From the NCBI GenBank assembly GCA_949825065.1, contig OX463854.1, forward strand, positions 11,259,112 through 11,323,111: 64,000 bases of DNA. The letters are read 5' to 3'. Each line of letters opens with the position of its first letter. Position 1 is the first letter of the stretch. Source of the stretch: Odontocerum albicorne. Its lineage: Eukaryota > Arthropoda > Insecta > Trichoptera > Odontoceridae. The notes under the pieces were generated by a model. The model was not told the origin of the DNA. It made no database searches and saw only the letters and a list, made by a program, of their open reading frames with translations. Shown piece by piece: positions 753-62,859 of this stretch. A program made the translations under genes and the position numbers.

Positions 753-1679
753 TCCACTACTTACATTATTCTAAGTGATCTTCATTCACATACAAAAAAA
801 AAATTTCTTATCGGAATATTTTTGTTTGAATGTGTTCATTTATTTAATTACGTATATTTTTCTCTCTTATAAAATATTAAAAAGAAAACAAAATATTTAG
901 ACTAACAATTTGTCTATTTGTTACAATGTACGATCTGTTTGACCATTAAAAATAATCACAATAATAAGCACGTACATACATAGTACAGGTTATGCAAAAA
1001 CGTGACAGGCCAAGGCGAAGGAGATCCAAAGCCCTAACATACAAAAATAAATAATAATTATTTTTGGAAAAAATGTAAAAAACTTATATTCGTGTAATTC
1101 ATCCACTCCAATGCATATACTCGTAAAAACGCATATTAGAACATTTGCATATTTTCAGAGATATCAAAAAGATTCAAAGTAAAAAAGTACATTTTTTGTG
1201 ACAATTTAAAGCGATTAAGTGTTGAGTTGCTTAAGTCGAGATAATACATTTTGCACTTTGGACGACGATATTAATGAATACACAATTTAAAGGTATTATG
1301 AAAGCAGCTCAGTTTTGGCACATACCATCCTATGGATGCACTAAATGTTATATGGCATATGCCCTAAATTCAGAAACTAATTAATTCACCCTTCCTGATT
1401 AATCTTGCACCTTTCAGGCGAGAGGGTGCGGGAATGGTAGCAAACAATGTGCATATCTCGGCTTTCAATTAGGTTTACCTTAATTATATTGAAAATTACA
1501 AATTTACCACAAGGTATTTTAGTATATTTAGAAAATTTCTAATTCTCTCATTATTTTACTATATCATTTTTGGGTAAGTCTGTTTTCAAAGTCTATTCTG
1601 CAAGTAACATATGACCTACACGTGGCAAGTGATTGAAATAGAAAACTGATATAACTGAGTGAATTTACTTTTGAGATAT
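753..1679. other. AT-rich stretch without a recognised feature
   Basis: No coding signal or repeat family recognised. It contains one TACTCGTA footprint-like 8-mer at 1118-1125. Confidence 0.5.
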
Positions 1680-1800
1680 AAGGATGTATATTTCTTCTTC
1701 ATTAATTCTTCATTAATACTTCATTGTATAAGTATAAGGATGAATATTTCTTCTTCATTAAATCTTCATTAATTTTTCATTAATACTTCATTGTATAACA
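1680..1800. repeat. Tandem duplication of a CTTCATTAAT-rich unit
   Basis: Two copies of about 57 bp, each starting near AAGGATG(T/A)ATATTTCTTC and ending in TACTTCATTGTATAA, with internal TTCATTAAT sub-repeats. Confidence 0.7.
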
Positions 1801-1879
1801 ATCTGATGAGCTGATTTGATTGTGGTGGCAGACTAGACAAAAGCAAGTAAAACTAGTTAGGTACATATGTGTATATAGT

Positions 1880-2160
1880 ATACCATACATAATACCAACA
1901 TGCTGTTTCCCTGTTATGGTTGATAAAAAGGAAACAGCACCACACTTTTCTACCTCGACACAACTATTTCACCTCTACCACATCCATACACCTTCTCATA
2001 CAACTCCTACGATTTTTCTTACTTCTTACTGTTACTTCTTTCAAAATATAATTATTTTGATTTAATGATACTTTCCTTGGTTTTCTCTAGCACGCCTTGC
2101 ACAGCATTTTTTATTAATTCATTCCACGTGCCCAAACCATTTCAGGAAGCTCTCCTTCAT
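1880..2160 (-). pseudogene. LINE-B 3' end fragment (copy 1)
   Basis: Read on the minus strand this gives the LINE-B signature 'FLKWFGHVE' near 2140-2125, then the family's decayed C-terminal region and 3' UTR, recognisable from the TTTCAAAATATAA, CCATACACCTTCTCATACAACTCCTACGA-like and TTTCCCTGT blocks shared with the other copies. Frames are broken throughout. LINE-B is the commonest LINE in the window and always appears as truncated pieces. Confidence 0.7.
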
Positions 2161-2462
2161 TAAAATCGGGAAAGAAATACGTAACCTTGCTAACTCGAAA
2201 TGAAGAACGTGGCAGGGTGGGTTAAGAACTACTGGAGAAGGCAAGTCATAACAGTTCACCATCGTAAATGTTGGAAAAACTGCCACACGTGGAAGGGCAA
2301 CAACACTCGCACACGTTGAGCATGTAGGATTATTGTTACAAGAAGAACTTTTAACATGACTGGGACCCTTTGTTTTTTGGATACCGTTAAGTATCGTACC
2401 CGAAACCCTCGATAACCAGCATGTCAGCAACAAGCCCACGCTGGTTCTCAACACGAAATTAT
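2161..2462 (+). other. Unclassified coding-like stretch, relatively GC-rich
   Basis: One plus-strand frame reads for about 85 codons with only two stops and ends at a stop near 2462; recognisable runs include 'FTIVNVGKTATRGRATTLAH' and 'VFWIPLSIVPETLDNQHVSN'. I do not recognise a family. A minus-strand frame is also open through the same region, so coding strand and reality are uncertain. It may be a decayed exon or part of an unidentified transposon next to LINE-B. Confidence 0.2.
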
Positions 2463-3389
2463 GACAGGAGAATTAAATGCGATACACGAATTAATAATCA
2501 AGAATTAGATTAAGAAGAAGAATTATCATATTTAGGAAGAAAGTTTTCTGTTTTTTTTCTGATTACGGATATGATAGATATTGAATAAGGTGTTGTGTAA
2601 GGAAACAAGGTCAAAAGGGCACTGAAATATTTAAACCAAAACCAAAGAATATTAAGCTCTACCAGCACACCTTTGATCAAAAAGTGAAATGAAGAAAAGC
2701 GCCGAAATCTAAAATAGGAGAATATATGTCGTCGTCGAGGATTCCCTCGCCACTCCAACGTCAATCTTGAACCGTTCTCTCACGTCAATCGTGTGATCTT
2801 CTGTGAGAAAACAGCCTAAAGACAGTGCAATGTATCCAATACAGTGCAGGTTTATCTTCCTCCACATGCAGCATTTATCCACTGTTCTATATACCTCTAA
2901 GTCTTTCCCACAGTTCTTATGCCTTTCTATTTTGGGATTCCATAGCACAATTATTAATGTCATCCACCTAGCGAAACATTCATCGATCGTCGCTTTGGCA
3001 TGCAACATTCGCTTCAGTTTTGAAACAACTTAAATAGCCAATGATACAAGTTCTTCAAACCTCAAAATTAAATGGTCATGTAGGCTGATTCATTGTTATT
3101 TATTTGTACGTTGATCAGATATAGAATGAGGTGAAGTGTCTATATTTTGCATATAATTATGGATAAAAATAAGTTTTAAAACTAATCTCGAATCAAAATG
3201 ACAAAAGAGCAAAACAAAACTAAAATTTAAAGTCCTGGTCACAAGAATCAGGCAGATTTCGTTTGTGTGTAGGATATTTTTCGTTTTATGGTGCCTTGTA
3301 TGTACTTTACTATTTTACTCGAAGAAATTGCATAATGCATATTGGAAACATTTCATTATACGCGGGTAATAAATAAATACATATGTTTA
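2463..3389. other. Mostly unrecognised; short repeat shared with 23.5 kb
   Basis: A minus-strand frame is open at 2709-3008 but has no recognisable motif, and plus-strand frames overlap it. About 50 bp near 2725-2775 (minus) resembles 23530-23575 (plus), around a TTGACGTTGGA block, so part of this is dispersed repeat. Confidence 0.35.
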
Positions 3390-3926: not shown

Positions 3927-4170
3927 TATAAACTTTTTAATCGAGGGAAGTTTTGAAGTCTCTTGGTCATGACCGAAGAACGTGCAATAAGATTTTCTAT
4001 ACGTTGAGAGATTAGACCCTGTGCAAAAAGTAGTATTTCTATTGGAATCTTCTTAAATAATAACCTCTAGAAAAAAAAAGCTTTAAATATCTAGAGATAA
4101 TGAGGTGAAAATTTTAATCATGCTTATTTTATAGACTAGAATTGTCAGATTGGCTTTTTTGGTCTAGGTC
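3927..4170. other. AT-rich spacer between two DNA transposons
   Basis: No feature seen. It separates the decayed DDE element from the mariner by about 245 bp. Confidence 0.5.
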
Positions 4171-4172
4171 TA

Positions 4173-4203
4173 CTATATCCTTACATATGAAATTGGCGTT
4201 TTG
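4173..4203 (+). repeat. Mariner left terminal inverted repeat
   Basis: TCCTTACATATGAAATTGG with a following C-GTTTTG pairs with the right end; the outermost eight bases have drifted. Confidence 0.85.
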
Positions 4204-4250
4204 TTTGGGAGGAACATAAAGTTGATTTTTTTTAAATATAATATATTTAT

Positions 4251-5270
4251 TTAATCAAAGTATGTACCATTGCTATCTATGCACTTTTGCCATCTCATAG
4301 GTAGTTCATCGATCCCTTTACTAAAAAAACCATTCGGACGGGAATCAATAAAATCTTTGAAGTCGGTTTGGACTGCCCCATCGGAGTTGAATTTTTTCCC
4401 TTGCAAGAAGTTATCCAAATTTCGAAAAAAATAGTAATCTGTTGGGGCAAGGTCCGGAGAGTACGGTGGATGTCTTAGACATTCCAATTGAAGCTCTTCT
4501 AATTTGGTAGCCGTCTGTTGTGCAGTGTGTGGTCTAGCGTTATCATGAAGCAGCAGTGGCCTAGAGCGATTAACCAGCCTCGGTTGTTTAGCAGCTAGCT
4601 TTTCCATCATGGTTTGCAGTTGCTGACAATAGACATCTGCCGTAATCGTCTGGCCAGATTTAAGAAAGCTGTAGTGAACGACACCAGCACTAGTCCACCA
4701 AACGCTCACAAGTAACTTTTTTGGAGTCAATTTTCGCTTGGGGCATGGTTTGGCTGGTTCGGCAGGGTTCAGCCATTGCGATGAGCGCTTCCGATTATCA
4801 TACAGGATCCACTTTTCATCACAGGTAATGATTCGATTCAAAATCCCTTCATTATTGTGCCGGTTGAGTAATGCAACGCAGCAGTCAACGCGCGTTTGTT
4901 GATTTGCTTCACTCAATTCGTGAGGTACCCACCTTTCAAGCTTTTTCACCTTCCCAATTTGCTTCAAGTGGATTAAAACAGTTTTATCACTAACACCGCA
5001 GCCTGCAGCTAACTCGGACGTGGTTTGCGATGGATCCGCTTCCACAATAGCCTTCAATTCTTCATTATCAACTTTGGTCTCCGGCCGTCCACGGGGCTTG
5101 TTCTGCAGGTCGAAATTTCCAGAACGAAAACGTTGGAACCAAAAACGCACTGTGTTTTCTTTTGCGGCACCGTCGCCATACACATCATTAATCCTTCGAG
5201 CCGTTTCTGCAGCACTGGTGCCACGGTGGAACTCGTACTCGTAAATAACGCGATATTTCAAGTTTTCCAT
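4251..5270 (-). CDS. Mariner transposase, DD34D, apparently uninterrupted
   Basis: It cuts and pastes the surrounding mariner at TA sites in the nucleus. I chose the Met at 5270 (MENLKYRVIYEYEFHRG), giving 339 residues, the normal mariner size; the longer frame to 5345 adds 25 residues unlike any mariner N-terminus. Order of features: paired HTH region (about residues 1-110, with 'TVRFWFQRF' and a GRP-type 'RGRPETK' linker), the conserved linker 'RWVPHEL', first catalytic D in 'ITCDEKWILYDN', second in 'LLHDNARPHTA', third in 'YSPDLAPTDYYFF'. I count 34 residues between the second and third D. It ends '...DSNGTYFD', the usual mariner C-terminus. No stop, frameshift or missing catalytic residue is visible, so it could encode active enzyme, although a degraded left TIR may limit this copy's mobility. 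Confidence 0.95.
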   Translation of the reverse strand: MENLKYRVIYEYEFHRGTSAAETARRINDVYGDGAAKENTVRFWFQRFRSGNFDLQNKPRGRPETKVDNEELKAIVEADPSQTTSELAAGCGVSDKTVLIHLKQIGKVKKLERWVPHELSEANQQTRVDCCVALLNRHNNEGILNRIITCDEKWILYDNRKRSSQWLNPAEPAKPCPKRKLTPKKLLVSVWWTSAGVVHYSFLKSGQTITADVYCQQLQTMMEKLAAKQPRLVNRSRPLLLHDNARPHTAQQTATKLEELQLECLRHPPYSPDLAPTDYYFFRNLDNFLQGKKFNSDGAVQTDFKDFIDSRPNGFFSKGIDELPMRWQKCIDSNGTYFD

Positions 5271-5429
5271 TTTGTAAACTGAGTGACGCAAAGAAAAAAA
5301 AACAATTGAGGAAAAAACAAATGAATTATAATTTTCGAAACACAAATACTTGAGTAAATAGCTGTATAAATTTGAATTTGGAATTCCTAACCAAAGAGAA
5401 GATATTTGAGATCAAAGTTGCCAGTACGG

Positions 5430-5460
5430 CAAAACTCCAATTTCATATGTAAGGACCTAA
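5430..5460 (-). repeat. Mariner right terminal inverted repeat
   Basis: Minus-strand reading begins TTAGGTCCTTACATATG, the better preserved end, followed outside by TA at 5461-5462. Confidence 0.85.
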
Positions 5461-5860: not shown

Positions 5861-6479
5861 ATCATAAATTTGGTTTAATAATATACATTTTGATGAGACC
5901 TCCCATAAAGGGGTGTCTTCAAGTGCTTCTCTAACACATAGAGGCAGATCATTTCTTAAGATGTCTTGAATATATTTCTAGTTGGTTTGAACACAGTGTC
6001 ACATTGAAATAAATTCGCTGCGTTAAAATATATACAACATAGGCAATACAATATTTTTTTTTTTAATTGAAATTGCCTCTTTTAATGATATGTAATGCAA
6101 CAGAAATGGATTTATCTGTTTGGTTTAAAAGCCCTTACAAATTGCATGTTTTCAAAGGATTCCACATGATTAAAGATTCGTGTTAGATAAATCCATTCAC
6201 GCCCTTAGAGTCAAGACACAACTCTGAACTTTATAGTTATGATGAATAATTGAAAGCAGTCGACACCGCAACCTAGATATAGTGCAGGCAGAATAGAAAC
6301 CCACAGTGGAACTTGGTGACGACTGGTGTGAAAGCAAACAAAAGTATATTGTTCCTTGAATACTGTTGATAATGACAGTCAATTACTTAACATATTATAT
6401 AATACTCGTATATATTTGTGAATTATGGGTATTAATTACACATTGTATCATATTACACTTTCGATGTATTAAATTCAAG
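5861..6479. other. No recognised feature
   Basis: AT-rich. It contains the footprint-like TACTCGTA at 6403-6410. The open frames here are short and motif-free. Confidence 0.5.
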
Positions 6480-6650: not shown

Positions 6651-7055
6651 GAAGATGCTGCATGACGAAGAAGTCCAGGAATGAGCCAAATATTGTAGCT
6701 TAAAAAAATTGAGACAACATACGGGAACCAAACATTCCTAGTCTTTCTTTACCACGCATCATTTTACTCAAATTTGATCTGTACATTAGTTTTATTTTTA
6801 TTGACTTTGTTTTTCGTCGCTACACACCGTTCATTTTCTATCGGCAGCTCTTCCATTATCTAAGAAAATACTACCTATTTAGCGAAATTCCTCAACTTAA
6901 TAATTTACACAAGAGAACAAAGACAACCAGTTTTATTAATATCACCAATTGTATCGGACGTATGCGTCACCATAAAATATGATCGATATACTCGTATTTT
7001 CTTGTTATTAGGATTTTTTTTATGTATAATTTTATGTTTGTTGAGGTCCGTGCTC
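6651..7055. other. No recognised feature
   Basis: AT-rich; footprint-like 8-mer at 6989-6996. Confidence 0.5.
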
Positions 7056-7200: not shown

Positions 7201-9499
7201 GAGCGCCAAAATAAAAAAATACATTATCGGTTCACTCTGTCTACGGCCTTTTACTTGCAACCATCTACTACCTGCTTAAGAGGAATCTCTTCACCCTGCT
7301 ACTTTTCACCGTGAGCCGAAATCTTCGAGCATTGAGCAGCAACCATCCACCTATTTCTAGTATTTGTACCGGTGCCGTACACTAATAATTTGCAGACGAC
7401 AATTACATAGACTAGGGGAAAGCACCTTTGTTCTCAGTACACGCATTTTTTTTAACTACAGATAACAATATAATTACGATCAAATTAAGACACAAGATGA
7501 TAAGTAGAACTGAAAAATAAAATATATAAAAAAAGTTCCCAGTTAGTGTGGCTTTTTCTAAAATAGCTGATTTTTTAAATTTTAAAACAAATACTGGCAA
7601 TGTATCCACAAGCTGAAAACAAAGTCAGAGTAAATCCAATCAAACTTTTTAACCACGTCTAAAAGCTTCCCAATATAAATAGAAGAGATAGAGAGAGAGC
7701 GAGAGGGAACGAAGCTCACCGTTGTTGGATTCCTGTCTATTGACAATGGAGATAATAAGCGCTGTTAATTATTCCATTGGAAACTTAGGATTTCGCATAT
7801 GTCGTCTCGCAGCACTAATTTGCTGTATCGACATTTCTGGTACATGTGTACCGTCGGGTTATTTCCCTCAGTTAGAGCACAAATAGTGTGATCATATAGG
7901 GTCTATGTAATTACTTGAGACTTTGAGCCACAATATTGCAGATTGAAATGTTCAGTTTACCCTAACTTGTGGGGTAAGAGAGATACTACTTGCCGTATGT
8001 GCAAATTCAGCAATGCAGAAGACATTTCTAACTCATAATAATAAAAGAACAATTTATATAACGCCGTTTAGAGAGCAAACTCTCCTCAAGTGCGTTTCCT
8101 TCCTTACTTCTTAATAAGATACCAAAAAGATGTGAAAAACTAATTTCTTTATCAATTGACGTTGCAAACGATGAGGATAGAACTATCAAATTTCGAATAC
8201 GATTTCTTAACGAATTAACAGCTTCAGAAATGCCGCTTCGCGAGTTAAAATTAAACAAAATATAATGTGATGGTAAAGTGAAAATGAAACAAAACGTATA
8301 CTCGTATATGGAGAAACAATGTTCTAATTTTCAAAAACAGAAAGCTGTCGAAGTAAACATATTTACTAAACAAATAAAAATTGATTTACTGTCATCGATG
8401 AAATCAGTTTTTGTAATTACAATTAAGGCTTTTTAATAAAATTGCGGGGCGCTTTGTAGGTTTCATTGGAGTTTAAAAGATCCTTTTTTTCGTATTCAGT
8501 GGTTAAATTTTGTTTCCAAAGAGGTACTGTCTGTGTTTCCTCTCTGGATTGTGTTATTGTTAAAGCAAGAACTTATTTGGTGCGATGGGCAAGAATTTTT
8601 TATCTTGTTTCTCCGTGATTGGAGAAAAATATGAACTTAGCAATAAGGATTACGGGTATATTTTCATGATAGTAATTGTTATTTATGAAATAATAATGAA
8701 AATTAACAAATCTCAACAATATGCTTTAGATAGGTGTATAAAATAAAGCTTTATGAATTAATTTATTTTAAAGCTAATGATTTGGATAAACTAGATGCTA
8801 TCATTTGGCTTAGTATTTGTTGGTTTAGTTTAAAATATAATTTTGCTTTTATTTATACATCAAGGTCTTATACGACGTAGAACATATATTTTTAAAGTCT
8901 TTCCATTAAAGCTCTTTTCTTAATTTTGGAGACCTTCAAAGCGAGGTAGTATACCTGTTATTTAAATACCTTGTTTGTGTTGTATTTACATCCTTTAAGT
9001 ATTTGAGATCAAAGACTCATAAATATTATGTAATCTGAGATGTTCTGGCGTTTCTTCCGCAATATAAAATATTTTGGTTATCAGTGTTTCTCAAACAATG
9101 TTTTGCAATACACATTTATGATGTAACAACCTTTAAAAATACCTTAAAACAGTGTTTCTGTAACTGCGTTGTACCACCCTCTCTTGGGCGTTCTGAGCAC
9201 AGTTGGTGACACTAAATGATATGAAAGGCAGCTTCAATTTTGTTGAAGCGATGAAAAACGCTTACCACTTATTTTACAATTTACCACATTTTTTTTGTAT
9301 GTCACTCCTTAATATATCCGAATAAGCATTTCGGGCACACTGGAAAGCGTGACCGGGAAACAATATTGTCTTCGAGCTCAGTAAGCGAGCCTTCGGGCTA
9401 GAATCTTGGAGTCAGCACATATCTCACGGGTCGTCATTGAACGTGTTGGCAACCCTGCTGCTCGGCACGTGCGAGTATTGTTTCCAGACGAACTCTTTT
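7201..9499. other. Long stretch without recognised gene
   Basis: AT-rich DNA with a purine run (GAGAGAGAGCGAGAGG) near 7690, one hairpin repeat copy at 8060-8096 and one footprint-like 8-mer at 8299-8306. Open frames at 7412-7609 and 8028-8258 have no recognisable motif. I see no exon-like sequence. Confidence 0.45.
8060..8096. repeat. Copy of the GAGAGC hairpin repeat
   Basis: ACGCCGTTTAGAGAGCAAAC then TCTCCTCAAGTGCGT forms a stem-loop homologous to those at 5595 and 58112. The flanking body is barely recognisable. Confidence 0.55.
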
Positions 9500-9620: not shown

Positions 9621-9999
9621 GATACTCGATTCCAGGTATACTCAAACTATATGTTTCTGGATTGGTTTTAATTTGCTCGTTGAAGAAACGAGTGCTAAAT
9701 AAATCCTTTGGATTATTTTTGTATTGCATGGGCATCTGAAATGAGATTATATAGGTAGAACCAAGGGGGCATATACTCGTATATAAAAAAGTCTGGCAAT
9801 CACCGTCTAAAATAAAGTGTATAAAACTGTTCAGGCTAAATATCGTAATCAATGTGTGGACAATTTGAAACGTGAACATAAACAACAAACAAATTTTTAT
9901 TCTGAATTTCTAGAGCTATGAAAGTGTTATAACTCTTTGAATAGCTTTTATTCTTCAAGTATCGAATTATTTTATTTCAAATAAAATACCTAACAGACA
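9621..9999. other. No recognised feature
   Basis: AT-rich with a footprint-like TACTCGTA at 9774-9781. Confidence 0.5.
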
Positions 10000-10347
10000 T
10001 ATGACCATGCGTGTATCATAGTATAAATAGGCCGAAACCCATACGACGGCTGTCGCCAAAGAAAGAATACGAGAATTGAATTTTGAATACAAGAGAGCGA
10101 GAGAGGAATACTTGGATTCTCTCCGAAAGCAATTCGAAATTTGAATCTCGGTGGGTCCGTGATAAATGAAAAGATGGAAACTATACTGAACAAATTTTAA
10201 ATACCTAGCTAACAATTTTTGAACCGGTATAAAAGGGGACGATGTATAAATTATATATACGAGTATATAAACAAATTCTACATTTATGAATATATATTTT
10301 CATAAATATAGAATTTGTTTTACTTCCGTGAATATTTCACGGGTTGC
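10000..10347 (+). repeat. Unclassified dispersed repeat with terminal hairpins (copy 1)
   Basis: About 350 bp shared with 37868-38430, which is inverted relative to this copy. Features in order: TATAAATAGGCC near 10021, a GAGAGCGAGAGAGG run, TCTCGGTGGGTCCGTGATA, ACCGGTATAAAAGGGGACGA (10223-10242, TATA-box-like), an AT tract holding TACGAGTA (10258-10265), a 50-bp near-perfect hairpin (AAACAAATTCTACATTTATG and its complement), then CCGTGAATATTTCACGG and GTTGCAACTAGT. It could be a solo LTR or a non-autonomous DNA element; I cannot decide. Confidence 0.7.
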
Positions 10348-10600: not shown

Positions 10601-10869
10601 CTAAACCATTACCCTAGAATAAAAGAAAGCGTTCTACCACTTTGCTACAGAAGACATAATTTCATTTTTAATGACATGTATTTCATACTGTCATAAATGA
10701 CGTATTTTTTATTACTTTTTTAACAATTTTTATGACATTGTTTTCATATTATTTTTCCAGTCATATACTCGTGTTTTAAATGTAACACAAATGCAATAAT
10801 TTAAGAAATAATCGTCAAAAACTTAAAACACATAATATCTTTTGATGCATTTTGTGTATAGGTTATTGC
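10601..10869. other. No recognised feature
   Basis: AT-rich. It contains TACTCGTG at 10766-10773, a one-base variant of the footprint 8-mer. Confidence 0.45.
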
Positions 10870-18914: not shown

Positions 18915-19170
18915 AATATTCTTACACCTTCTCGATACAACTCCAACGATTTATCTGCCTTTCTTCACTTTTAACTTTAAAAAATTATTCACATGATCCA
19001 ACAATAATCTCTTGTCTACCTCTTACACACCTTCTTCTCTCATCTGCACTATACTCGTATATTTGTTTTGTTAATATTTCTTCATTAATTCGTTACAAAT
19101 GCTAAAATCATCTCTGAGTGATCTTCATCGAAGTCAACACATCAGATTTAAGTTTACATTAGTTTCTTAT
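18915..19170 (-). pseudogene. LINE-B 3' end fragment (copy 4)
   Basis: Minus-strand LINE-B blocks in order: CCTTCTCGATACAACTCC, TTCACATGATCCAACAAT, CTCATCTGCACTA and the TTAAGTTTACATT block. A TACTCGTA 8-mer at 19052-19059 interrupts GCACTA-TATTT, which is uninterrupted in the copy at 32246-32258. Confidence 0.7.
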
Positions 19171-21184: not shown

Positions 21185-21905
21185 AACCGAATAATTCTGT
21201 AGAAATGCGTACACTGAGAAGAATATACGAGTATGAGAGGTCAATGTTTGAGTATATCAGGATACGGAATTAAGTAGTAAGGGATAAATATGACCTTAAG
21301 GCTGAAATTATCAATAAGAAGAAGAAAAGCACTCTGAGAGTGTTTATTTATTTAACACTTCATTGTAAATACAATCTGGCTGGCTTATTACCAGGCGACA
21401 ATCTCTTTTAACTAACCGGACAAAAGTAAATAAAGTAAGTTATATGGTCGCAAAAAAAATCCAAAGATTATTAACGAAACATATTAAAGAAAAAGTAAGA
21501 TATCGTCAATCAAAGGAAATGGAAAGGATGGTGGAGAGGAAGGCAAAAAATAAGGAATGAAACACTTTATATTACCAATTAGAAATTAAGAGTTTTTTTC
21601 TTTCGTTTCTTGTGAACAGAAAACGAATGAGTGTAGAAAGTTAAAAAAATCAAAATATAAAGTGAAGAACGTTTAAAAAATCAAAAACAAACAAATATGA
21701 GTGGAAATCATGGTAAATTAAGACCAAAGAAAGTATGATTTGATCAGATGAATTATATTTTGAAAGGAGGAAACGTTGAGTCAGAGTATCATAGGAGTTG
21801 TATGGATGTAAAAAATGCGAATAATGAATGTCGAGTTGAAAAAATCTAGCGCTCTGTCCTTTCTGTATACTGCGACAGGAAAATTGTGTGATTTTATGTA
21901 GGTAT
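21185..21905 (+). pseudogene. LINE-B fragment (copy 5) split by a nested LINE-C insertion
   Basis: The 5' piece (21185-21344) encodes remains of 'AVEMRTLRRI' (TCTGTAGAAATGCGTACACT) and a decayed 'KYDLKAEIINKK'. The 3' piece (21626-21905) resumes with AATATGAGTGGAAATCATGG, 'ATTTTGAAAGGAGGAAACG' and the GCGCTCTGTCCTTTC end. Between them a LINE-C tail on the opposite strand has inserted. It carries TACGAGTA at 21226-21233. Confidence 0.7.
21345..21625 (-). mobile_element. Nested 5'-truncated LINE-C 3' end
   Basis: GTTTATTTATTTAACACTTC at the left is the LINE-C 3' terminal microsatellite. Then come the ATTGTAAATACAATCTGGC and GACAATCTCTTTTAACTAAC blocks and most of the 3' UTR up to GAAATTAAGAGTTTTTTTC, where homology ends. 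No coding part remains. The orientation is opposite to its LINE-B host. Confidence 0.75.
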
Positions 21906-22655: not shown

Positions 22656-23244
22656 GTTGGGATGGAGCCAGGGAGAGAGATTTAATAAAAAAATCTATGG
22701 GAGATTTCCATATTATTCGATTTAATGTGCGGCACTTCTCCTCACGCGAACCTGTTCCCAAAGTCACTAATCAGCAACAATCGTATTATTGTGAATCCCC
22801 CCCACACGGACTGTCATTCAGTGTGGAGTTATATCTGGATTTAATTGAGAGATTGACTCACTTATTATTTATCCTACCTCCGTTGGATTTCAGTACACCC
22901 TGATTGACGTTGCTTGAATCTAATAATATTTCTTAATATATAATATATAGAATTCCTAGATTTTTGGAACATAGTTTAATGAGAATCACGTTATATCGGT
23001 ACTAGGTAAATTCTTGTGAGTCATGTAATAAACAAATATTAAAACTGATAATTAGTTCGTAGAAACAGGAAGATGAAACGAAATATTTAACGGCTAGTTT
23101 AAATTGGATACAAAGTCAATGAGATACTTAAAACACATATTCAAATCAAGCTAAATCAAAATCTGCTTAAATGAAATTTCACAATGGCGTACTCGTATCA
23201 GTGCCAACAATTATGAAATGGAATAAAATGTGGGTATAAAATTA
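22656..23244. other. No recognised feature
   Basis: Probably includes the RTE 3' UTR at its left; a footprint-like TACTCGTA lies at 23190-23197. Confidence 0.4.
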
Positions 23245-28405: not shown

Positions 28406-29284
28406 TATGTACCTGTCCAGCTGTGTAGCTTCTCAATTTTATTAGGAAGTTAAGCCGACTAGCCACAATATTCCATTTATCCTCCTAATTCGAGTGTGTG
28501 CGCCTCCGCGTGTTTGTCAATTGTGTGTGCTTTTCAATGTTTGTCGATATTACCCATTTACAAACAAACTATCGCACACACACGACAATCAATTCCAATC
28601 CATTTGCATATCGTTATTGACAGTTCAATCAAGATGTCACCGGCTAAAATCAATCACATTACCAACGGTGGTGGAACCTTGTGATATTTCCACTACATAA
28701 AACATAGAGTCCAGACCACTCCAACTTGTCCGGGGGAGTCAATCGACACTTCGTCAGCTTGGTCAAATTTGATGGATAGTGTCGGCGTTGGATCAACAGA
28801 ATGGAGTATTACCTAATCTGAATGAGGCCAAAATGTCACAGTGGACCCTTGATTGATGTAGCACTCTGAAGAAACAACATCTTCGCTTCTTGATTATGGA
28901 AAAAAGTATCGATATAATTTATCTATATAACAAATGTTTTTAATGAATCTGCTTTTAAGACATATCAGCTATTATCATTTCATGTATCTCTTAATGAGCA
29001 GTAAATCACTTCATTTTTCATTTATAAAAACGGTTCTTTGCTATAGTGAATAACATATTTTAAAAAGATCAATAAAGTTTTAAGGTTAATAGTTGGACCA
29101 CGAATTAGGCATATTCTAAATCAATTCTATCATAAATGTATTCTAAGTTACTTTATGAAAAAAATATTGATGCACGTTTATGAAGCTGTTCAATTATTGT
29201 TTGTGAAAATTTGGTTTAAGATTTTTTTTTTCATTTTTAGGAAGTAGTACGAGTATTATATACGTATATCAATCTCATGACTTG
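28406..29284. other. No recognised gene
   Basis: 28480-28860 is less AT-rich and has short open frames in two frames, but no motif. A footprint-like TACGAGTA is at 29248-29255. Confidence 0.4.
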
Positions 29285-32700: not shown

Positions 32701-32814
32701 TTGACTGTCCTCTCTGCAAATTTTGACACTGTCCGGTACGAGTATATATGTTTTAATATCCCACAATTCTACATTGACTTACTTCCTCCAATAGTACTTG
32801 ATGGTTTTAAAATA

Positions 32815-35792: not shown

Positions 35793-37867
35793 TTCGTCAT
35801 GTAATGAGGCATTTAATTGAATGTTTAAATTTTATTTGTTAGTGGTTACTGTAAAAAACCAGGGTTAATGACTAATAAAGGAATGGGGTGTGTAGGCGTT
35901 GTCATGAAATTGTTGGTTGAATGGGAAACAGGTCGAGGAGAAGACTTAAACTAAAATCAATTTGATTATTATTGGAAAAATAATTATGCAGATTTATTCG
36001 ATACGTTCAAAGTGGAAAAAAATATATGAAATCTGAACACAGATGTCACTTAAACAGCATATTACTGTCGATGAATAGTTTAGATTTGTAATAACTTGTT
36101 GCATTATTTGGATTTTTCTAAGTAAAATTAGACGCGCACTGTAATAGTTCAATTATAAAATTAAAACCATCTCTTTTTATCTATGTCCTGATGTATGGTA
36201 GTGTTAAAGAAATAATAGCCGCGAGTTTTTATAGTTTTAATATTCAGATGTCACGTGCTATGTCGGAGTGGTACTGTTGTTTAATGTGGTACTTTAATTG
36301 ATACAATTATATAAGATGTATTTATAGGAGTAGTAAGTACAACAGTCAATATTTTATAAACAATCATCATTTAGTTACATAAGTGTTTTACAATATTTCT
36401 GAAACTCTCGAAATTGATTAACTTAAATAATCGTATTCACTATTTAAAATACTGAAATGACCTACAATTCGATACTTTCATATAACATACAGTATTTAAC
36501 AAATGGATGTACATAGACACTTGAAGATTCTATTAGCATTTACAATAGGGCGTGCAGCGCCAGTACGGGGTTGGGCAGTATTGTAGCCAGGGATGGAACT
36601 CATAGTTTAATTACATTATCTTACATTCGATGGACATACTCGTACAACTATTGAGGAAGTTGATTACTTGAAGTTTTTGTAATTCGAAGGTTTCGAGATT
36701 TATTCGAGAAATCTTCTTTGAGAAAAATCCCGAAATACAAGTAAGCTTGACTCCGATAGGCATAAAGTTCCTGAAGAACTTTCGCGTCTACGATGATCCC
36801 ATTACTCTTACAACTTTCACACGCTTTTGTTTCTAATACTCCAGAATATCCAGTATCTATGGATCATTTAGTTTTTTGTCACGCAGTATACTATATATTC
36901 GAACATACCAAACAGTTTAGATAAAAATCTTCAACTACATACAATTGTTTTTATTATTTGGTTATCTGTTCCGTGAAGAAGACTGATCTAAACTGATCTG
37001 CTGGATCTAATGCCACTGATGATTCAAAGTTGCTGAGACAGCGAACGGATCATGCTTTTTTTTATCTTCAATTTTCTGCTACAAAACCTTGTAGCGGACC
37101 TAACAGCATTACCTTATTTTCAAACCAATGCACTTGATTATTGAATTGTAAAGTTTTTTTAAACTGTTTGAACTAGTTTAAACTGTCAGCAGTTTAAATC
37201 TTTGCCGGGAATTTACCCTCAGATTGAAAGCCAAACGTTTTCCAACCAGGCCATGGAGTTGTTCATGACGGTGATCTTATATAAATACGTACTTAGTTCA
37301 GATAAAAATAATAAATTGAAAATGATTTCAATCTGCTTTGCGACAATCTATTAGTCGCATCTGTGTGGCGCAAATAATTATTTGTCGGCCCTGCTCACCT
37401 TACCTTGCGTCGTATCGTAATTACGTAAAGAAGTTTGTGGAAATATTTTGACAGGTCTGTAAAGCTTATTTAGTGTTAACGAATTATTATTACTAAGTAC
37501 AATAGGGTATTTGTAAAGAATGACCACGGGAATTAAATGTCGATGAGTAACCATCTTTGATGTAAAGTATTGTTCTGCTTTTGGTCAACTGTTCTGAGTA
37601 ACTTGACTGATAAGTTACAGCTAAACATAATTAATGGTGTTAATTGTGATACTTTTTTGTAACGGATGCAACAATTTACTAATTCTAAAATCTTTATTTT
37701 GTTTGAATAATTTCCTGCAAATATATATGGCAGATTTATTATTCATGTTTCTTTAATTTTTTTAAATGTTGATAATAACAAATCACTTCTGATTTAGCCT
37801 GTAAGATCGTTCCAAAGTTGAGCCGGGTGAATCGTAAAATATGATATGTAGTACGAGTATTATGTGA
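35793..37867. other. No recognised gene
   Basis: AT-rich. It holds a footprint-like 8-mer at 36637-36644 and another at 37852-37859. 37180-37290 looks like a degenerate minus-strand SINE (TTTTCCAACCAGGCCATGGAG). Confidence 0.4.
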
Positions 37868-38430
<563 letters not shown>

Positions 38431-38764: not shown

Positions 38765-39775
38765 TTTACTTGTTTCTCGTCGCTACCATTCTTTAAATGT
38801 TCTTTTAAACTCGCCCAACATACGTCGACATACTGTTCATGTATGAGAACTCGTCTATCTGTTTTAGTTTCTCTACAGTAACCAATATGTCGCAAACACT
38901 TTTAACCACACCTTTTTTATTACCATTACTTTCCATTCAGCTACATTAATTTCCAAACCTTTTGTTAGTCATCTCTCATATAGCTCACTTATCATGCCCC
39001 TTAAATTCCTTCAACTTTAATTAGGAAAATCATACAACCTACACACAGACGTCCATATACGAGTACATATATATTTGTCACTCTTTCTTATACTTGTATG
39101 TCTCCCATCTTCTTTTGAAAGCGCACATATGAATATATTTATAATACATTATATAAATTACTAGGCGATCGCACTTATTCATTTATTATTTACGCTATTA
39201 TAATATTGTAATACTTTCCAAAATGTCTCAATTCATACGTTTTCAAATATACAAAATACCTTATTCCTGAACATATCTCAGATACGTTCCGTAACGCAAA
39301 AATAAATCTGGTAGACGCATCATCTACCAACAGAAAATAAAAAACACCATGCGTTTACCATATTATATTTTAAGTTATTTTACTCTGTCTCTCTCAATAA
39401 CAGTTCCTTCTTACAGTTTATGTACCACACATAATAAACTGTTGGTTCTTTATTAATTGGACTCGATTCTACGATAATTTTCCTTCTACAATAGCACAAC
39501 AGTAGCCTTCATCCCATTATAAAGAGTGTAGTCAGAGTTCCAACATTTATTAAAAAAACATACTATTGTATATATCAATTCAATAAATCCATCACATTCA
39601 TATGCAACATACTAAGGCAATTTACTATCATACACTGCAGTCTTCCTCTTCTATATGTATACTCTTGACAGCCGCTTTTATCTCCTCTAAGGCAATTTCA
39701 CACATATTATCTACATCAATAGGGTCACTTACACAGGGATCATTATTATGATAACTCTTCGCGTTTCCATATATT
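38765..39775 (-). pseudogene. LINE-B reverse-transcriptase remnants (copy 9)
   Basis: Minus-strand coding scraps appear in the right order for an RT. 39775-39645 reads 'YHNNDPCVSDPIDVDNMCEI' and 'ALEEIKAAVKSIHIEEEDCS' (the 'ITLEEIKAAVKxMK' start of the RT domain). 39010-38765 reads 'VVKSVCDILVTVEKLKQIDE' and 'FSYMNSMSTYVGRV' (the 'LEQVxEFxYLGSMFTxxG' thumb region). The catalytic palm between them is not recognisable, and frameshifts and stops are frequent. A footprint-like 8-mer is at 39058-39065. Confidence 0.6.
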
Positions 39776-40079: not shown

Positions 40080-40245
40080 ATTTTATATAAAACAATTATA
40101 AAATGAAATGTAGGAAAATAAAATTAAATAAGTTCATTAATTATAATATATAAATAATATGAGTTAAGTAATTTGTATATATATACGAGTATATACGAGT
40201 ATATGCTATAGGTATAGCCTTGGCAAATATTTGTACCATATATTA
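40080..40245. repeat. Dispersed repeat shared with 60270-60390
   Basis: AGGAAAATAAAATTAAATAA, GTTCATTAATTATAATATA, TATACGAGTAT (twice here), ATAG(C/A)CTTGGCAAATATTTG-type blocks occur in the same order at 60.3 kb, where TATACGAGTAT is single. Confidence 0.65.
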
Positions 40246-43330: not shown

Positions 43331-43448
43331 GAATATTGTTGACAATCTGTGACTGAATTGAGCCAATAGTACTCGTAGATAAAAAAAAATCAAATAAATA
43401 GAGCGGATAAACTCGATACTTTTTTAAAAAAGTGACAGATATCATCAT

Positions 43449-45679: not shown

Positions 45680-45915
45680 TTGTTGGGATAGGCAGATAGG
45701 ACAGAGCGCCTGACTAATTTATATTGACACACCTTTGCCTCTTCAATATTCATATACCTTCTCATACAACTCTCTGACTTTTGACATTTTCCTCTTTCAA
45801 AGTACTCGTATCATTCACTTGATTCATCCATACTTTTCTTGCTCTTTCTTTACCATGCCTTCTGCTCACATTTTCATCAAATATTTAATTTCTTAGTTTT
45901 TCTTCATATTATGTG
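45680..45915 (-). pseudogene. LINE-B 3' end fragment (copy 12), carrying a footprint
   Basis: TTCATATACCTTCTCATACA and the CTTTCAAAG...TCATTCACTTGATTCATC block show LINE-B. TACTCGTA (45803-45810) sits where copy 2 (11014-11037 in complement) has a plain TA. Confidence 0.75.
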
Positions 45916-47933: not shown

Positions 47934-47937
47934 CTTC

Positions 47938-48270
47938 GCTGGGAAGTCCATATTAACGCTTTGAGCACAAAAATCAGAAAATTGGGATATACTCGTATAT
48001 TCCGTATGATTCAAAATGTGCTCAGTGAAAATATTCTTAAAAGTATATACTTCGCCTTATGTCAGTCAGCACTTTCTTACCGTACATCAGTTTGTGGAGG
48101 ATGTACCTTAACACAAAAACACATATTGCAGGTTTCCCAAAAAAATATTACAAAAATAATTAGTAAGGAAGGCGTGAAAGTCTGTCTCTGTGTAACCAAC
48201 ACCCAATATATGGAGTCATCTTATAACATCCTCCCAATCGAGATACGCCTCCACCAATAGGCGGGCGAGC
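47938..48270 (+). pseudogene. CR1/jockey-like LINE C-terminal fragment
   Basis: The frame reads 'LRWEVHINALSTKIRKLGYT', 'NVLSENILKSIYFALCQSAL' and 'SYRTSVCGGCTLTQKHILQV', the region after the RT palm ('LxWxxHIxxLxxKLRKxIYxFRxLRxxLSxxxLxxIYxALxQSxLxYG'). A two-codon insertion (Thr-Arg) at 47990-47997 coincides with a TACTCGTA footprint. It continues in a decayed frame to about 48260. Confidence 0.8.
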
Positions 48271-49780: not shown

Positions 49781-50599
49781 TGTACTTGAAGGATTAAATT
49801 TTTTTGATATCTATCAATTACTAATTTAATGTAGAATATCTTAAATAAATTGAATAATTATTTATAATTGTTATAAGTTTTAGACAAAAAAAACTGAAAG
49901 CTCTAAATAGTGCAAACTTTTTATTATGCGTGTAAAAGAATTATTTATTAATTTAGTTTATAAAATAAATACATATCAATGTACTCATAAACCTTAATAA
50001 CTTCGTTCTTGCATTTTACATCTTAGATCTTACATTTACCTTTTTTCTTTCACTTTGACTATACCAAACTATCCTTAACATATAAAACATATACATTATT
50101 GTGTTGGCACGTAATATGTGCTTAACATAAATTCTTGGTGCGCTTTTCGAGTAACCGATGTAACAAAATTGAGTTTAATAATTTGAACATTAATTTATAC
50201 GAGTATTTATTTACTTTTTTCTTTATTTTTGTATAGCACTGTTTCTAAACGATATATCAACTCAAAATCGTTTATTTTTTTATTTATTGCAAAGCAGCTC
50301 ATAAATGCTACTAAATTAATTCAAGTAAATAATATAAAACCGGAATATTTGTAATGAAAAACAAGTCGTCAATTCCAGAGTCTATACGTAGTACTCTTGA
50401 TAGTGCCTCTGATGTTCAGGAAAATATTGAAATTATGATCGAGAATAATAAGTTCGATTAAGACAGTGAAGAAAAATCCTGAGGCATTTTTTAAGACCGC
50501 TGCTGCTAGTTAGCGGCTAAATAATGAAGCAATCCTTCACAGCCTAGTTAGATTCCCAATTCATGTTGTGCATATGGGACATACGTATGGAACATGTTG
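49781..50599. other. No recognised feature
   Basis: AT-rich, with a footprint-like 8-mer at 50198-50205. Confidence 0.45.
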
Positions 50600-53045: not shown

Positions 53046-54114
53046 TAAAAATGTATTTATTTAATTAACGACACAACAGTGTATTTTATATACAAATGAA
53101 CATATGATAAGTTATACAAGTACTTAAAATTATTGACAAAAATTACAAAACTTTGTCTTAAACTAACATTGAGATACAAAAAGCAGTACTAATAATAAAT
53201 TATAAGTCATTGTTTAAAATTATTTAATATTAATATCTATATTTAAGTTGAATATATGTATGTTATATCACTAAATATTACTAAATTTTACCAAGTAGAC
53301 TTACGTTACTGTCGAAGACTTGTTTTACAGTGGTAAAGAACATAGATTAGTTTTTTAGTGGAACAACGCTTACATATGTTAGAACAAGAAGAATTAGATT
53401 TTTTGAGAATTTTATGGATAGATCTTGATATATAGAAAACACATGGGATCACTTGTAGAACAAGATGCAAGTTGCTTTGCAGAATCGAAACCTTCCACAT
53501 GTTGATGCAGGGTTACTCAACTCCAGAGGCCAAGTATTGTCCTTAATGTTTAGTTTATACTAGGTAATTTATATTAATAAAGGAGAGCACAAAGTTAGTT
53601 GCTATTTCTAAATATTGTTGTGATATTCTGGCGAATACTATAATATATATACTTATATTAAAAATATGTAAATTGAAATATCAACATTCAACTTTGCAGA
53701 TTTTGTACCAAATTTAATTACGTAATAAAATCCCTTTTTAAATTTTCAAAAACATGGTTACATTGTTTTATATCATTTCCGTGATGATGATGGTCGTATT
53801 CCGAATTTCACAATGCCTCCCAATTTCAGAACGATTAATAGGCTTAGATTCTTCTGACAAATGTGTCTTCAGATAAAAAAGACAAAAACACGGCCCATTT
53901 CTCTCTTCTATTGTCCAGATTTTTATCACTTCGGGATCAGAAAAAACATCACTACGATAGACCGTTATAAAAACATATAGATGATTTACGATTTGTTTAT
54001 GTTCTGGTGATACATAATCTGAGGTGATAAAAGAGATCAATTTCTAAGTGGTGTTGGGATAACAAGCTACTGAAAGATGGAATATTACGAGTATACGGAT
54101 ATAATAAAATTTAT
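53046..54114. other. No recognised gene
   Basis: AT-rich. Minus frames at 53306-53500 and 53768-54040 have no motif. A footprint-like 8-mer is at 54086-54093. Confidence 0.4.
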
Positions 54115-54239: not shown

Positions 54240-54352
54240 TGTTAAGTCAAACGCTATTTATTCCATTTTATATAACCAAACAGTGTTTAATCAAACAAAT
54301 TAAAACATCTTTAAACCTCTACAGTGTAAAAGCCGTAACTATTGTACGAGTA
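54240..54352. repeat. Foldback element remnant (copy F), centre deleted
   Basis: GTCAAACGCTATTTATTCCA runs straight into AACAGTGTTTAATCAAACAA, so both arms are present but their inner ~100 bp are gone. TACGAGTA lies at 54345-54352, at the outer edge. Confidence 0.65.
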
Positions 54353-58111: not shown

Positions 58112-58400
58112 AGCGCCTTTTTGAGAGCAAACTCTCCTCCAAGGCGCTCTATCTTAGGAATTGAACCCATTATTATTGACAAATTATAAATATTACGAAA
58201 AATAACAGTTTAGTGTAAGGAAAGATATGTTGTGGCTGCGGCCAATAGATTAGGTACTTCCCCGCATCTGCATAAATTTAGAAAAATATATTTGGTAAGA
58301 TAACCACTGAAAACTTTTTAAGGGAAAACTACAAAGAAACCGTTGGAGATTTCCGATATGTGATAGTAATACGAGTACATTCGGATTTAGGTGGAGTATA
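58112..58400. repeat. Dispersed repeat with AGCGCC hairpin (copy 3)
   Basis: AGCGCCTTTTTGAGAGCAAA then CTCTCCTCCAAGGCGCT folds into a perfect outer stem (AGCGCC/GGCGCT) and inner stem (GAGAG/CTCTC). The body (GGAATTGAACCCATTATTAT, AAATATATTTGGTAAGAT) parallels 5595-5860. TACGAGTA at 58370-58377. Confidence 0.65.
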
Positions 58401-58696: not shown

Positions 58697-58885
58697 TTTA
58701 ATATTACGCAATTATAATATAACTGTAGCAATAACAAAATAAATACATTCAAATAATATAATATTACGCAATTATAATATAACTGTAGCGATAACAAAAT
58801 AAATACGTTCAAATAACGTTATACTCGTATTACGCAATTATAATATTACTGGAGAGATAACAAAATAAATACATTCAAATGACAA
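58697..58885. repeat. Tandem repeat, about 60-65 bp, three copies
   Basis: ATTACGCAATTATAATATAA...GATAACAAAATAAATAC(A/G)TTCAAAT occurs three times. Copy 3 has TACTCGTA (58822-58829) directly before TTACGC where copy 2 has TA (58762-58763). Confidence 0.85.
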
Positions 58886-59242: not shown

Positions 59243-59845
59243 TAAGAAAATATTGAAATTTCGAAAAAATAGAGATTTATGACGAAAAACACGTTTAACA
59301 AATAATAATCCTGTCATGATTTTGTACATATATTCGTAAACTTGGACGTCAATGGCAGTTTTTCGAGATAAAAGTATGAAATTTCAGTATACTCGTATAA
59401 CTATGAAATGTTCATACACATTTAACAGGTTTTGACGTTTTACGAGTGTACACCAATTAATGTCAGTGCGTTTATTTTGTCTTGATTCATTATAAATCTA
59501 GCATTTTTGTACGAAAACGCATTGACCTCAATTGGTATATAAAACGTCAAAACCAGCTAAACGTATATGAATATTTCTTAGTAATATACTGAAATTTCAT
59601 ACTTTTTACTCGAAAAACTGACATTGACGTCCAAGTTTACGAAGATATGTACAAAATCACGTCAGCATTATTATTTGTTCCACGTGTTTTCGTGTTTTTC
59701 GTCCCAAACTTCGAATTTTGCGAAATTTGAATATTTTGCGTCAATGTTTTCAAGCTTGAATGTTTTTTTTTACTTTTGACTAACAAAAAACCAATTTTTC
59801 GTATAAAAATGCTAGATTTATAATGAATCAATACAAGCAAATCTT
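59243..59845. repeat. Large imperfect inverted repeat
   Basis: Left arm about 59243-59474, right arm about 59513-59750, roughly 75 percent identical by eye. Shared blocks: GTAAACTTGGACGTCAATG, AGTATGAAATTTCAGTATA, GGTTTTGACGTTTTA and GATTTTGTACATAT. The 38-bp loop (TTGATTCATTATAAATCTAG) occurs again inverted outside the right arm (about 59797-59840). Confidence 0.85.
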
Positions 59846-60469
59846 ATTTTTTTAAAGAGTCAGTATAGGATAATTACCAAGAAATCTTATTTTTCAAAAG
59901 TGTCAGTTGCTGACCAACAAATCTTAGTTTTCAATGATAATTATCATTTTAGCTTGGACCGTGAACTTCCATAAAACCCAACAAAATCACAGCAATCCCT
60001 TAATCGCTGCCCTGGGGCTTACGAGAGTAAATCCGACCTACTTTTCCATTATAAGCACTGGATCCCGAAGCATCATCTGTTGTCTGACTAGTCCACCTAC
60101 AGTATTAGCTGGGACGACCAAGCGAGTTGCGAGAGTGAATGTGATGGAATACAAGTAGCCTGAACGAGTGGACTTGTTCTTGCTAAAAAAATTGTTCTAA
60201 GAATTGTTATCTGGTTATAAGTAGTATGTAGGTGTTAATTATTTCTAAGAAATCATGTATTAAGATTATAAAAAAAAGAAATAAAATGACATATAGGAAA
60301 ATAAAATTAAGTAAGTTCATAAATTATAATATAAGTACTTAATAAATTTGCATATACGAGTATGATAGTTATAGACTTGACAAATATTTGGATCTGCAAA
60401 TCTTATTTTTTCTAAAGAGTCAGTAGATAATAATTATCAACAAATTTTATTTTTTAAAAGTGTCTTCTT
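59846..60469. repeat. Degenerate 40-50-bp repeats and unrecognised sequence
   Basis: CAAATCTTATTTTT plus AAAGTGTCAGT plus GATAATTACCAA recurs near 59838, 59880, 59920, 60397, 60440, 60680 and 60712. 59940-60160 is less AT-rich and open for 74 codons without motif. 60270-60390 is the copy of the repeat at 40080. Confidence 0.5.
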
Positions 60470-60655
60470 CTTCTTCCCAGTGTCATGTCAGGTCCCCCCA
60501 ATGTTGAATATCACCTGAGAGTAGGCATCTTTGTCCCCGGCAGCCCAAAAAAGATCCCCATACCAGTCCAATCACGTATATTGCGGAGCCAGGAGATTTA
60601 CCTCCTACCAACACCTCATCGACCCTCTATTTTGGCTTGGATAATCAGGTGCAGT
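60470..60655 (-). pseudogene. LINE-A 3' end fragment (copy 2)
   Basis: Minus strand: '..LRNIRDWTG' region from GCGGAGCCAGGAGATTTACC and GACTGGTATGGGGATC, ending GGGGGGACCTGACATGACAC then GGGAAGAAGAAGAAGACAC, the same GAA-type 3' end as at 504-517. Confidence 0.75.
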
Positions 60656-61334
60656 AATTTGTAATTTGTTATTAAAAGTGTCAGTAGATGATAAGTAACA
60701 ACAAATCTCAATTTTTAAAAGTTATTATTAGATGATAATTACCAACAACAACAACATATTTAAAGAAGATAAACTCATTTATTACAGCTAACATATCAAT
60801 TTATTTTAGAAACTTGACGCTAAAATAGTCACTAGTTAATAGTATATAGCTTTCAGATATGGATAAGACGACATTAATCTATCGGAACTAATCTCGTGCG
60901 TCTTGTATAAATATTGATTCTCTAAGTAACATTTCTTTTAATCTATCACGTTAAGGAAAAGAAAAACATTTCGTGTTTCCTTACACAGTGTACTCCTCAT
61001 TGATTATATCAAAGATAAAAGCTTCCCACATACGCCCTTATGCAATCGAAGACAGGGTAAGCAGAGCAGTTTTTGGAGGACAATTTATGTATTTGTTCTG
61101 TCCGCTGTGTAAAAGCGACCGTAGGAAGTGACGTGTATGAGTTTATTTGACATCGATTACCGGCATGTCCATCAAACTAGGCTTCCTAAGCCAAACGCTT
61201 TTATAAATTATATTTAGCTTCATAGAAATCTTTCTTTACCCCTCGTTGTGGACCAGGAAAGGGCACTATGTTGTCCAATATGCCCTTATCGAGATAGCGG
61301 GTTATTTTTATGTATCTTCGGTACATAACCGCTC
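60656..61334. other. No recognised gene
   Basis: Two more copies of the 60.4-kb degenerate repeat, then AT-rich DNA; a frame at 61246-61449 runs into LINE-C and is not called. Confidence 0.4.
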
Positions 61335-61905
61335 ATTTATTTATTTAACACTTTTATTGCAAATACAATCTGTCGGGCTTATTGCCAGACGGCAATCTCT
61401 TCCAACCAACCAGACAAAAGTAAATGAAGCAAGTTACGTGGTCACATAAATCATTCAAATGACTATCCATCCCCACGAAATCCATAAACATATACGTGAG
61501 CACATGCCCACGAACATCACAAAGACGAACAGTCACCCGAACATTCCTTTTCATATAAAGTGAGATATCATCAGTCAAAAGGAAAGGAAGGGATGGTGGA
61601 GAGGAAAGGAAAAGAAAAATCAGGAATGAAACACGTTATATTACTGACTAGAAATTAAGAGGTTTTTCAGTCGCTTCTTAAAGCATGCCAAGGACGGAGC
61701 GAGTCTTATATTAATTCTCGGCGAGATAAGAGGCTGTGGCGGGACAGTTAAGGATATTATACAATAGAGACAGTATGTGAATTTGGCGTCTATTTCTAAC
61801 ATTCAACAAGTTCAATGCCTTCTGGTATGAAGCTATATGATCGTACTTAAGTAGGTTGAAAATAAATCTTAGACACACATTTTGAAGACGCTGTAATTTG
61901 TCCAG
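61335..61905 (-). pseudogene. LINE-C C-terminus and 3' UTR with internal deletion
   Basis: Collinear with 15755-16470: TTTATTTATTTAACACTTTT, the 3' UTR, GTCGCTTCTTAAAGCATGCC ('KKRLK'), then a jump at about 61712 from TCTTATATTAATTCTCGG that removes roughly 150 bp of coding sequence, and on to CACATTTTGAAGACGCTG ('RLQNVC'). Confidence 0.85.
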
Positions 61906-62859
61906 CTGCTTATTTCTTAATCACCAAAAATATATAATAGTAGTTCTAAATATTAAAACAGTCCCTTAAACTTTCAAACTCTACATTTACATCATTACAC
62001 GTGCTTAAATCTCAGGCTATCACATTCACAATTTCAACCGTATCATAATTTCAATAACCACATCAAAATAATACCCACTAACTCAATCAAACGCTACACA
62101 TGTCCAACAACTCATCAAACGCTACACATTCACATGTTATTCAATTACTCACGAGACATACGAAAAACTTCTCACTTATCGGTTTCGCCCTGCAAAAGAA
62201 CCACCTTGTTATTTATTTATACTCGTATGTATATAACATTATTTTAACAAGTAATAATCTAATTGTTTTTTTCTGCTAAGTTTCAAATAGTTGGTTTTTG
62301 TCATTGTACAAACCTGTTTGCTTGACAATAAAGTTAATCTTATTTTTTTTTATTATAACCCAAAAGTGACATTTTCTGTGAGTTGTAAATTTAAAATAAA
62401 ATTAGTAAATCAACATTTTTAAGTGATAAGAAATTAAAATAAATTTCGTGTTAACATACTTATAAATAAGATCGTTGATTTTGTAATTCTCGTTAAGGTT
62501 TTTTTTTTAATTGGAATGCCTGGAGTGTTTGTCAAGGGAAATAAAATATTTTAATGTAAAAATGCTACTAGTCAATGTTTCGGATCTTAACACACGATCG
62601 TCGACAGTAAATACTTACAGAGATTGAAATTAAGATACGATGAAATAAAATAAATCCCTGTTTGAGATTTACGGTAGTGGCCACCTTACCTTTATTTATT
62701 TATTTATTTATTTATACATTATTTTTTACATAATAAGGAATGTTATTGGAATAATAAAAGCAATACGTTAATAGGGTACATTTCAGTCATACAAAAATAT
62801 ATTCTTCTTCCCCTATCTTGTGTATTTTGTATGCATATGTACTATAGATCTGTTAGCCC
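61906..62859. other. No recognised gene; TTTA microsatellite at 62692-62716
   Basis: Includes a partial duplication (CAAACGCTACACAT at 62088 and 62118), a TACTCGTA at 62220-62227 and a (TTTA)n run that may be a LINE-C 3' end without body. Confidence 0.4.

Follow-up and report, generated by a model that had tools for sequence, protein, structure and literature searches.

An abundant eight-base word in the genome of Odontocerum albicorne as the probable excision footprint of a Tc1/mariner-type transposon

The DNA considered here, called the window throughout, is a stretch of 64,000 nucleotides from the trichopteran Odontocerum albicorne (assembly GCA_949825065.1, contig OX463854.1, positions 11,259,112 to 11,323,111), and the feature of concern is an 8-mer, TACTCGTA or TACGAGTA according to strand, in which CTCG or CGAG stands between two TA dinucleotides. 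Most of these 8-mers are very probably excision footprints of a cut-and-paste transposon of the Tc1/mariner type that carried CGAG or CTCG as its outer four bases at both ends. A first-pass annotation of the window had described them as apparent Minos-type excision footprints; the footprint part of that claim is borne out by the enrichment of the word and by the plain TA found in related repeat copies, and the Minos origin of the element, or its membership of the Minos family, is unproven.

Abundance of the word in the window and the assembly

The window contains 28 exact copies of the 8-mer, 15 reading TACTCGTA and 13 reading TACGAGTA; every coordinate given by the first-pass annotation was exact on recount, as was its approximate split between the two forms, a split that carries no evidential weight because any word is strand-symmetric in long DNA. 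The excess over chance that it had estimated by eye is likewise upheld, with a mean of 1.39 copies (maximum 5) in 100 dinucleotide shuffles of the window, Markov expectations of 1.84 (order-2) and 2.03 (order-3), and a range of 1.5-3.8 across orders 1 to 4. By order-2 and order-3 scores the 8-mer ranks third in over-representation among all 8-mers of the window, behind the two (TA)n words, and among TA-N4-TA words with one CpG its 28 copies compare with 9 for the runner-up, TAACGGTA. The positions of the copies are compatible with a uniform spread (Kolmogorov-Smirnov p 0.56). Their flanks are mostly unrelated past a few bases, so that the 8-mer cannot be taken for a fragment of a single longer repeat; the 8-mers at 40184/40194 and 60355 do sit in two related repeat copies. 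Two variants also occur, TACTCGTG at 10766, as previously noted, and TACGAGTG at 59441, an addition to the earlier list.

As a candidate second footprint word TAACGGTA was rejected, since most of its occurrences belong to a repeat that is present in inverted copies. The family to which that repeat belongs contains TGTAACGGTATAACCCTACCGG (window 16754, 17180, 17294, 19995, 43959, 57038 and 57139, and positions 224-330 of fetched locus L019) and explains most TAACGGTA words.

Across the assembly (1.287 Gb in 1241 contigs, with the window at C22:11259112-11323111) the 8-mer occurs 381,502 times, 190,749 and 190,753 by strand, as compared to 30,151 for the word read in reverse and 18,693 for the control of the first-pass annotation, TAGTCGTA. 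Words of the same composition are thus 13-20 times rarer (~20-fold for TAGTCGTA), and the genome-wide enrichment that the annotation had put forward as a check is present. The degenerate word TACKMGTA totals 406,280, which leaves 24,778 for the mixed words TACGCGTA and TACTAGTA together; this is background level, given that composition predicts 6.1 of them in 304 kb, or about 26,000 genome-wide. Among TACNNGTA words only TACTCGTA/TACGAGTA lies far above expectation (99 vs 7.0), the next being TACACGTA at 15 vs 8.0, and forms that differ from it by one mismatch in the centre occur about as often as expected. The pieces of genome sampled come from round positions on selected contigs and are therefore a non-random sample, some loci having been picked for their Tc1 genes.

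Part of the assembly total lies in tandem arrays that bear the 8-mer in nearly every unit. Two unrelated arrays of ~101 bp are of this kind (L025 1455-6000 and L027 8415-9839), and two units of the L025 array read TACGAATA, with a substitution inside the 8-mer. The end of contig C1 is also very rich in the word, with 100 matches to TACKMGTA in 53.7 kb, where TAGTCGTA has 4 in the contig's initial 100 kb; 8-mers there recur at regular spacings of 45, 66 and 99 bp, partly as short tandem arrays, and loci L004 and L019 go with this observation. For dispersed copies, ten 10-kb pieces of C22 taken at round positions contained 18 copies in 100 kb, the window being denser at 4.4 per 10 kb. Scaled from these pieces less background, an estimate from a small sample, the genome would hold ~200,000 dispersed copies, a scar density that suggests roughly 200,000 past excisions of a transposon.

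Insertion at TA in related repeat copies

Comparison of repeat copies shows the 8-mer to be an insertion of 6 bp at a TA. When the repeats of the window are aligned with one another, six-base gap events number 21 and 8 of them, at four sites, involve the 8-mer; the same is true of 1 of 131 one-base events and 2 of 21 five-base events. Over the wider sample 97 non-satellite 8-mer sites were tested, of which 22 have a copy alignable on both sides and 8 of these 22 show a 6-bp gap. Control TA-N4-TA words show such a gap at 23 of the 1050 sites that could be aligned (Fisher p 5e-8 against the 8-mer); for control words with two or more G/C the figure is 19 of 257 (p 3e-4), with 11 of the 19 due to a single word, TAGGACTA, found in a tandem array of L027. 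Viewed from the gaps, 85 six-base gap places include seven exact 8-mers and one with a single mismatch, as against an average of 0.22 exact matches for shuffled-centre words, and gaps of 4, 5, 7 and 8 bases include 1, 1, 0 and 0 exact 8-mers. The test of the 97 sites omitted L022, L025, L027 past base 8200, the overlapping loci (L001, L002, L005-L008, L040-L045) and any site closer than about 40 bp to the end of its locus. In the cleanest pairs the empty state is plain: at L017:1479, 14 and 15 of 15 flanking bases match and the partner copy has a plain TA, and at window position 59390 an inverted neighbour is without both the 8-mer and the 59441 variant. The plain TA that a footprint reading calls for is thus found at the equivalent position of related repeats in the same genome, and at the 8 of 22 sites a TA that is single in the related copy is duplicated around extra bases, as in a Tc1/mariner footprint.

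The emptied target agrees with this superfamily as well. TA-targeting Tc1/mariner elements favour A-TA-T, and with the 6 bp removed from 61 sites the TA is preceded by A 40, G 14, T 3 and C 4 times and followed by T 37, A 10, C 8 and G 6 times; over all TAs of the window the baseline is 0.38 both for A before and for T after. The transposon would have inserted at a TA and duplicated it, and on excision, presumably by its transposase, would have left four of its own bases protruding from either side of the break. Overhangs of CGAG would pair at their outer bases and mismatch at the two middle ones, and repair of this mismatch to either strand would turn TA into TA-CGAG-TA or TA-CTCG-TA, a gain of 6 bp. 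The background level of TACGCGTA and TACTAGTA is as expected if both middle bases are repaired in a single patch, although an insert of fixed sequence would give the same picture.

The scars look young. Pooled arm sequence holds 133 one-mismatch forms as compared to 149.5 expected, thus no excess, and the window alone is slightly above expectation with 54 vs 46. At six-base gaps, seven intact words stand to one changed word, which from so few cases gives about 2% substitution, and since CpG is undepleted (observed/expected 1.03), CpG decay does not distort this estimate. Many scar-bearing repeats are merely 65-80% identical to their copies. The excision episode may have been recent, at roughly 2% substitution, with excisions far outnumbering surviving insertions and the element now rare or lost.

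Individual sites of the window differ in how directly the insertion can be seen. Footprints with a 6-bp gap are those at 8299-8306 (plus strand; gap against repeat copies in L016), 19052-19059 (plus; gap in six alignments, gapless in two), 45803-45810 (plus; in a LINE-like repeat, with the gap in six alignments, none in one and other outcomes in two), 58370-58377 (minus; gap in four alignments and a 4-bp gap in one) and 59390-59397 (plus; gap against the inverted neighbour copy 59515-59686, 82% identical). The same neighbour shows a 6-bp gap at the variant TACGAGTG (59441-59448, minus), a decayed footprint in the same repeat as 59390. At 40184-40191 (minus) the gap is against the copy 60287-60415, which has one 8-mer (60355-60362, minus) where its relative has two; the second, 40194-40201 (minus), lies 10 bp from the first and is a probable footprint by its exact word, and 60355 is the corresponding place in the related copy.

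A further 14 sites may be read as footprints on the strength of the exact word: on the plus strand 1118-1125, 6403-6410, 6989-6996, 9774-9781, 23190-23197, 36637-36644, 43370-43377, 47990-47997 and 62220-62227, and on the minus strand 29248-29255, 37852-37859, 39058-39065, 50198-50205 and 54086-54093; TACTCGTG (10766-10773, plus) is a possible decayed footprint. Five sites gave other outcomes. The 8-mer at 10258-10265 (minus) shows no gap but is uninformative, the related copy having a (TA)126 tract there (37952-38204); 21226-21233 (minus) is ambiguous, with a 5- plus a 1-base gap against one copy; 54345-54352 (minus) is likewise ambiguous, with a 2-base gap against one copy; 58822-58829 (plus), in one unit of a 60-bp tandem array, has two gaps summing to 6 bp and was counted as ambiguous; and 32737-32744 (minus) is gapless against two copies, which counts against insertion there or points to an old shared footprint.

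The 8-mer at 5236-5243 (plus) arose by chance in the coding sequence of a mariner transposase (open reading frame 4251-5345, minus strand). It was rejected as a footprint on the alignment to Mos1, which is gapless here, and on the identical word in the L027 mariner; in the comparison with SETMAR, judged by its coordinates, the head piece has equal ranges. The mariner itself (4173-5460) has an open 364-amino-acid transposase frame with Mos1 and SETMAR as relatives and TTAGGTCC at one end, and its L027 copy, at 98% identity, has lost 11 bases of the coding region.

Contrary observations and the search for a source element

Several findings weigh against the excision of a CGAG- or CTCG-ended transposon as the origin of the word. 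Among the 22 alignable sites, 14 are without a 6-bp gap: at four the copy carries the word too (the mariner pair 5236/L027 making up two of them), three are gapless and seven ambiguous. Several arrays with the word in every unit and one unusually rich chromosome end are unpredicted by the model, and in a tandem array of L019 the word aligns by eye, with no gap, to the same-length variants TACATGTA and TACCCGTA. The 13 complete Tc1 copies contain no 8-mers where 4.8 are expected, and five 8-mers lie at most 40 bp from one of the 26 Tc1 ends (L029 803, L031 478, L034 2129, L039 438 and L055 551) where 0.27 are expected. Finally, inverted-repeat and insertion screens over ~300 kb of genome, a scale at which low-copy elements would be missed, found neither a single element nor a family that ends in CGAG or CTCG. 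With regard to the Tc1 copies, the lack of scars inside them suggests that they are not older than the scars. The excess near Tc1 ends is unexplained by the modestly higher TA content there (0.116 vs 0.090), and it is a guess that these 8-mers reflect insertion hot spots common to both elements.

The first-pass annotation had proposed a search of the assembly for elements with CGAG ends and TA duplications, and the resident elements that such a search reached have other termini. Of 22 Tc1-like loci fetched, 13 have readable ends and start TA-CAGTCTGTTTGAC, TA-CACTRGCGGTCATTG or TA-CAGTAYTGTGCGAATT (CAGT or CACT), two mariners start TTAGGTCC (TTAG) and CTAGGTAAGTCC (CTAG), and the single match of the screens was a mariner with CTAT at its opposite end. 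TACGAG is unenriched in the fetched loci (57 vs 71 expected), and TACGAG or TACTCG without a following TA has no recurrent continuation except in tandem, duplicated or overlapping copies. A Minos transposase query gave a best match of 34% identity (30-35% for the best-scoring, with short pieces up to 43%), and the best matches belong to elements with CACT ends where the ends are readable; among the 118 scored of 31,325 candidates there were distant relatives only and no close relative of the Minos transposase. The first 14 bases of the Minos terminal repeat, CGAGCCCCAACC, are matched exactly nowhere and with one mismatch 78 times, as compared to 25 times for a control; relatives may differ at this sequence. 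That the screens yielded no CGAG or CTCG ends and the transposase query only distant relatives implies that the source element is rare, lost, or of a kind outside those examined.

Three candidates for a source were rejected. The right end of L031, TACGAGCCTGTTTGAC, has two matches in the genome, one of which has the footprint word at its start; a mariner that ends in TACGAG on one side (L046-L048) is represented by three copies that look like one duplicated locus, and two others read TACTAG; and a small CCCG-ended element (L009, L025, L032) has a word, TACCCGTA, that is unenriched at 5 vs 3.9. A search for loci related to the window mariner among genome and viral contigs was uninformative, as was an Rfam scan at the gathering threshold. 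As an observation on the resident elements, TACACTA/TAGTGTA occurs 60 times vs 36.8 expected in the window and L003-L028 (248 kb), none of them in a terminal repeat, an excess that is possibly the 3-base footprint of the resident CACT-ended Tc1 family.

Alternative readings and the place of the scars among known systems

The 8-mer might instead be a short functional site, bound for example by a DNA-binding protein that is abundant and perhaps derived from a domesticated transposase, which selection keeps intact and which has spread through the genome and its satellites. The word is near-palindromic in a palindromic A-TA-T setting, its one-mismatch forms show no excess in the pooled arms, almost every unit of at least two unrelated tandem arrays contains it, and C1 shows it at regular intervals of 45, 66 and 99 bp. 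New binding sites, however, arise mainly by substitution, and what is observed are 6-bp insertions exactly at TA; moreover, forms with one mismatch in the centre are about as common as expected and one-mismatch forms in the window alone slightly high, so that a functional site is an improbable origin. Still harder to credit is programmed excision, whereby the assembly would represent somatic DNA from which a Tc1-derived machine had removed ~200,000 germline-limited, TA-bounded elements, leaving 4-base scars. Such a process would account together for the intact words, the absent source and the number of sites, and, if true, would be an animal counterpart of the excision of internal eliminated sequences (IES) in ciliates; yet arrays with the word in each unit, along with the substituted L025 units, fit an inherited scar amplified with its array, the scar at 59441 is decayed, and no observation requires this reading. 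A word bias without a process of its own, whether from composition or from hitch-hiking in satellites and repeat families, can be set aside as very unlikely, for although satellites contain part of the genome count and the mariner copies share one 8-mer by descent, the flanks in the window are mostly unrelated, the counts exceed both Markov expectations and same-composition words by a wide margin, and the insertion at TA already contradicts it.

Footprints of a Tc1/mariner-type transposon remain the preferred reading, and known systems offer partial parallels to them. Minos, a Tc1-like element of Drosophila hydei, reportedly leaves CGAG or CTCG between two TAs on excision, and the scars described here share with it the TA target and the four-base remnant, a likeness on which the Minos part of the earlier claim rests; they differ from it in that no close Minos transposase was found among the 118 candidates scored and no exact match to the terminal 14-mer, and in a scar number far beyond what is known for Minos. 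For Sleeping Beauty, ZB and Tc1, published reports describe how end joining leaves bases of the element between the two copies of the TA (PMC2874221, PMC7913693), with ZB footprints of zero to three base pairs (PMC7913693). These three elements leave 0-3 bases or other letters, unlike the scars described here. In scale the nearest likeness is to Paramecium, where tens of thousands of dispersed excisions take place (45,000). Paramecium IES are TA-bounded and their excision restores one TA, whereas 6 bp remain in O. albicorne and elimination is not observed. No report of footprints on this scale was found in the available portion of the open-licence literature on Minos, footprints and excision, and none of the listed literature matches to the literal 8-mer words is about transposon footprints by its title or abstract.

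The interest of the system lies in the scale of the scars and in the missing source. Studies of excision footprints usually deal with a handful of them, obtained in excision assays, whereas one word here seems to record excisions about once per 5-6 kb of chromosome arm, each scar being a 6-bp, frame-preserving insertion. At that density the history of a transposon, including its departure rate, its former sites and the time at which it stopped, may be readable after the element itself has become rare or been lost, and natural events in very large numbers would be at hand from which to measure its target preference, the outcome of repair and how excision and reinsertion are balanced.

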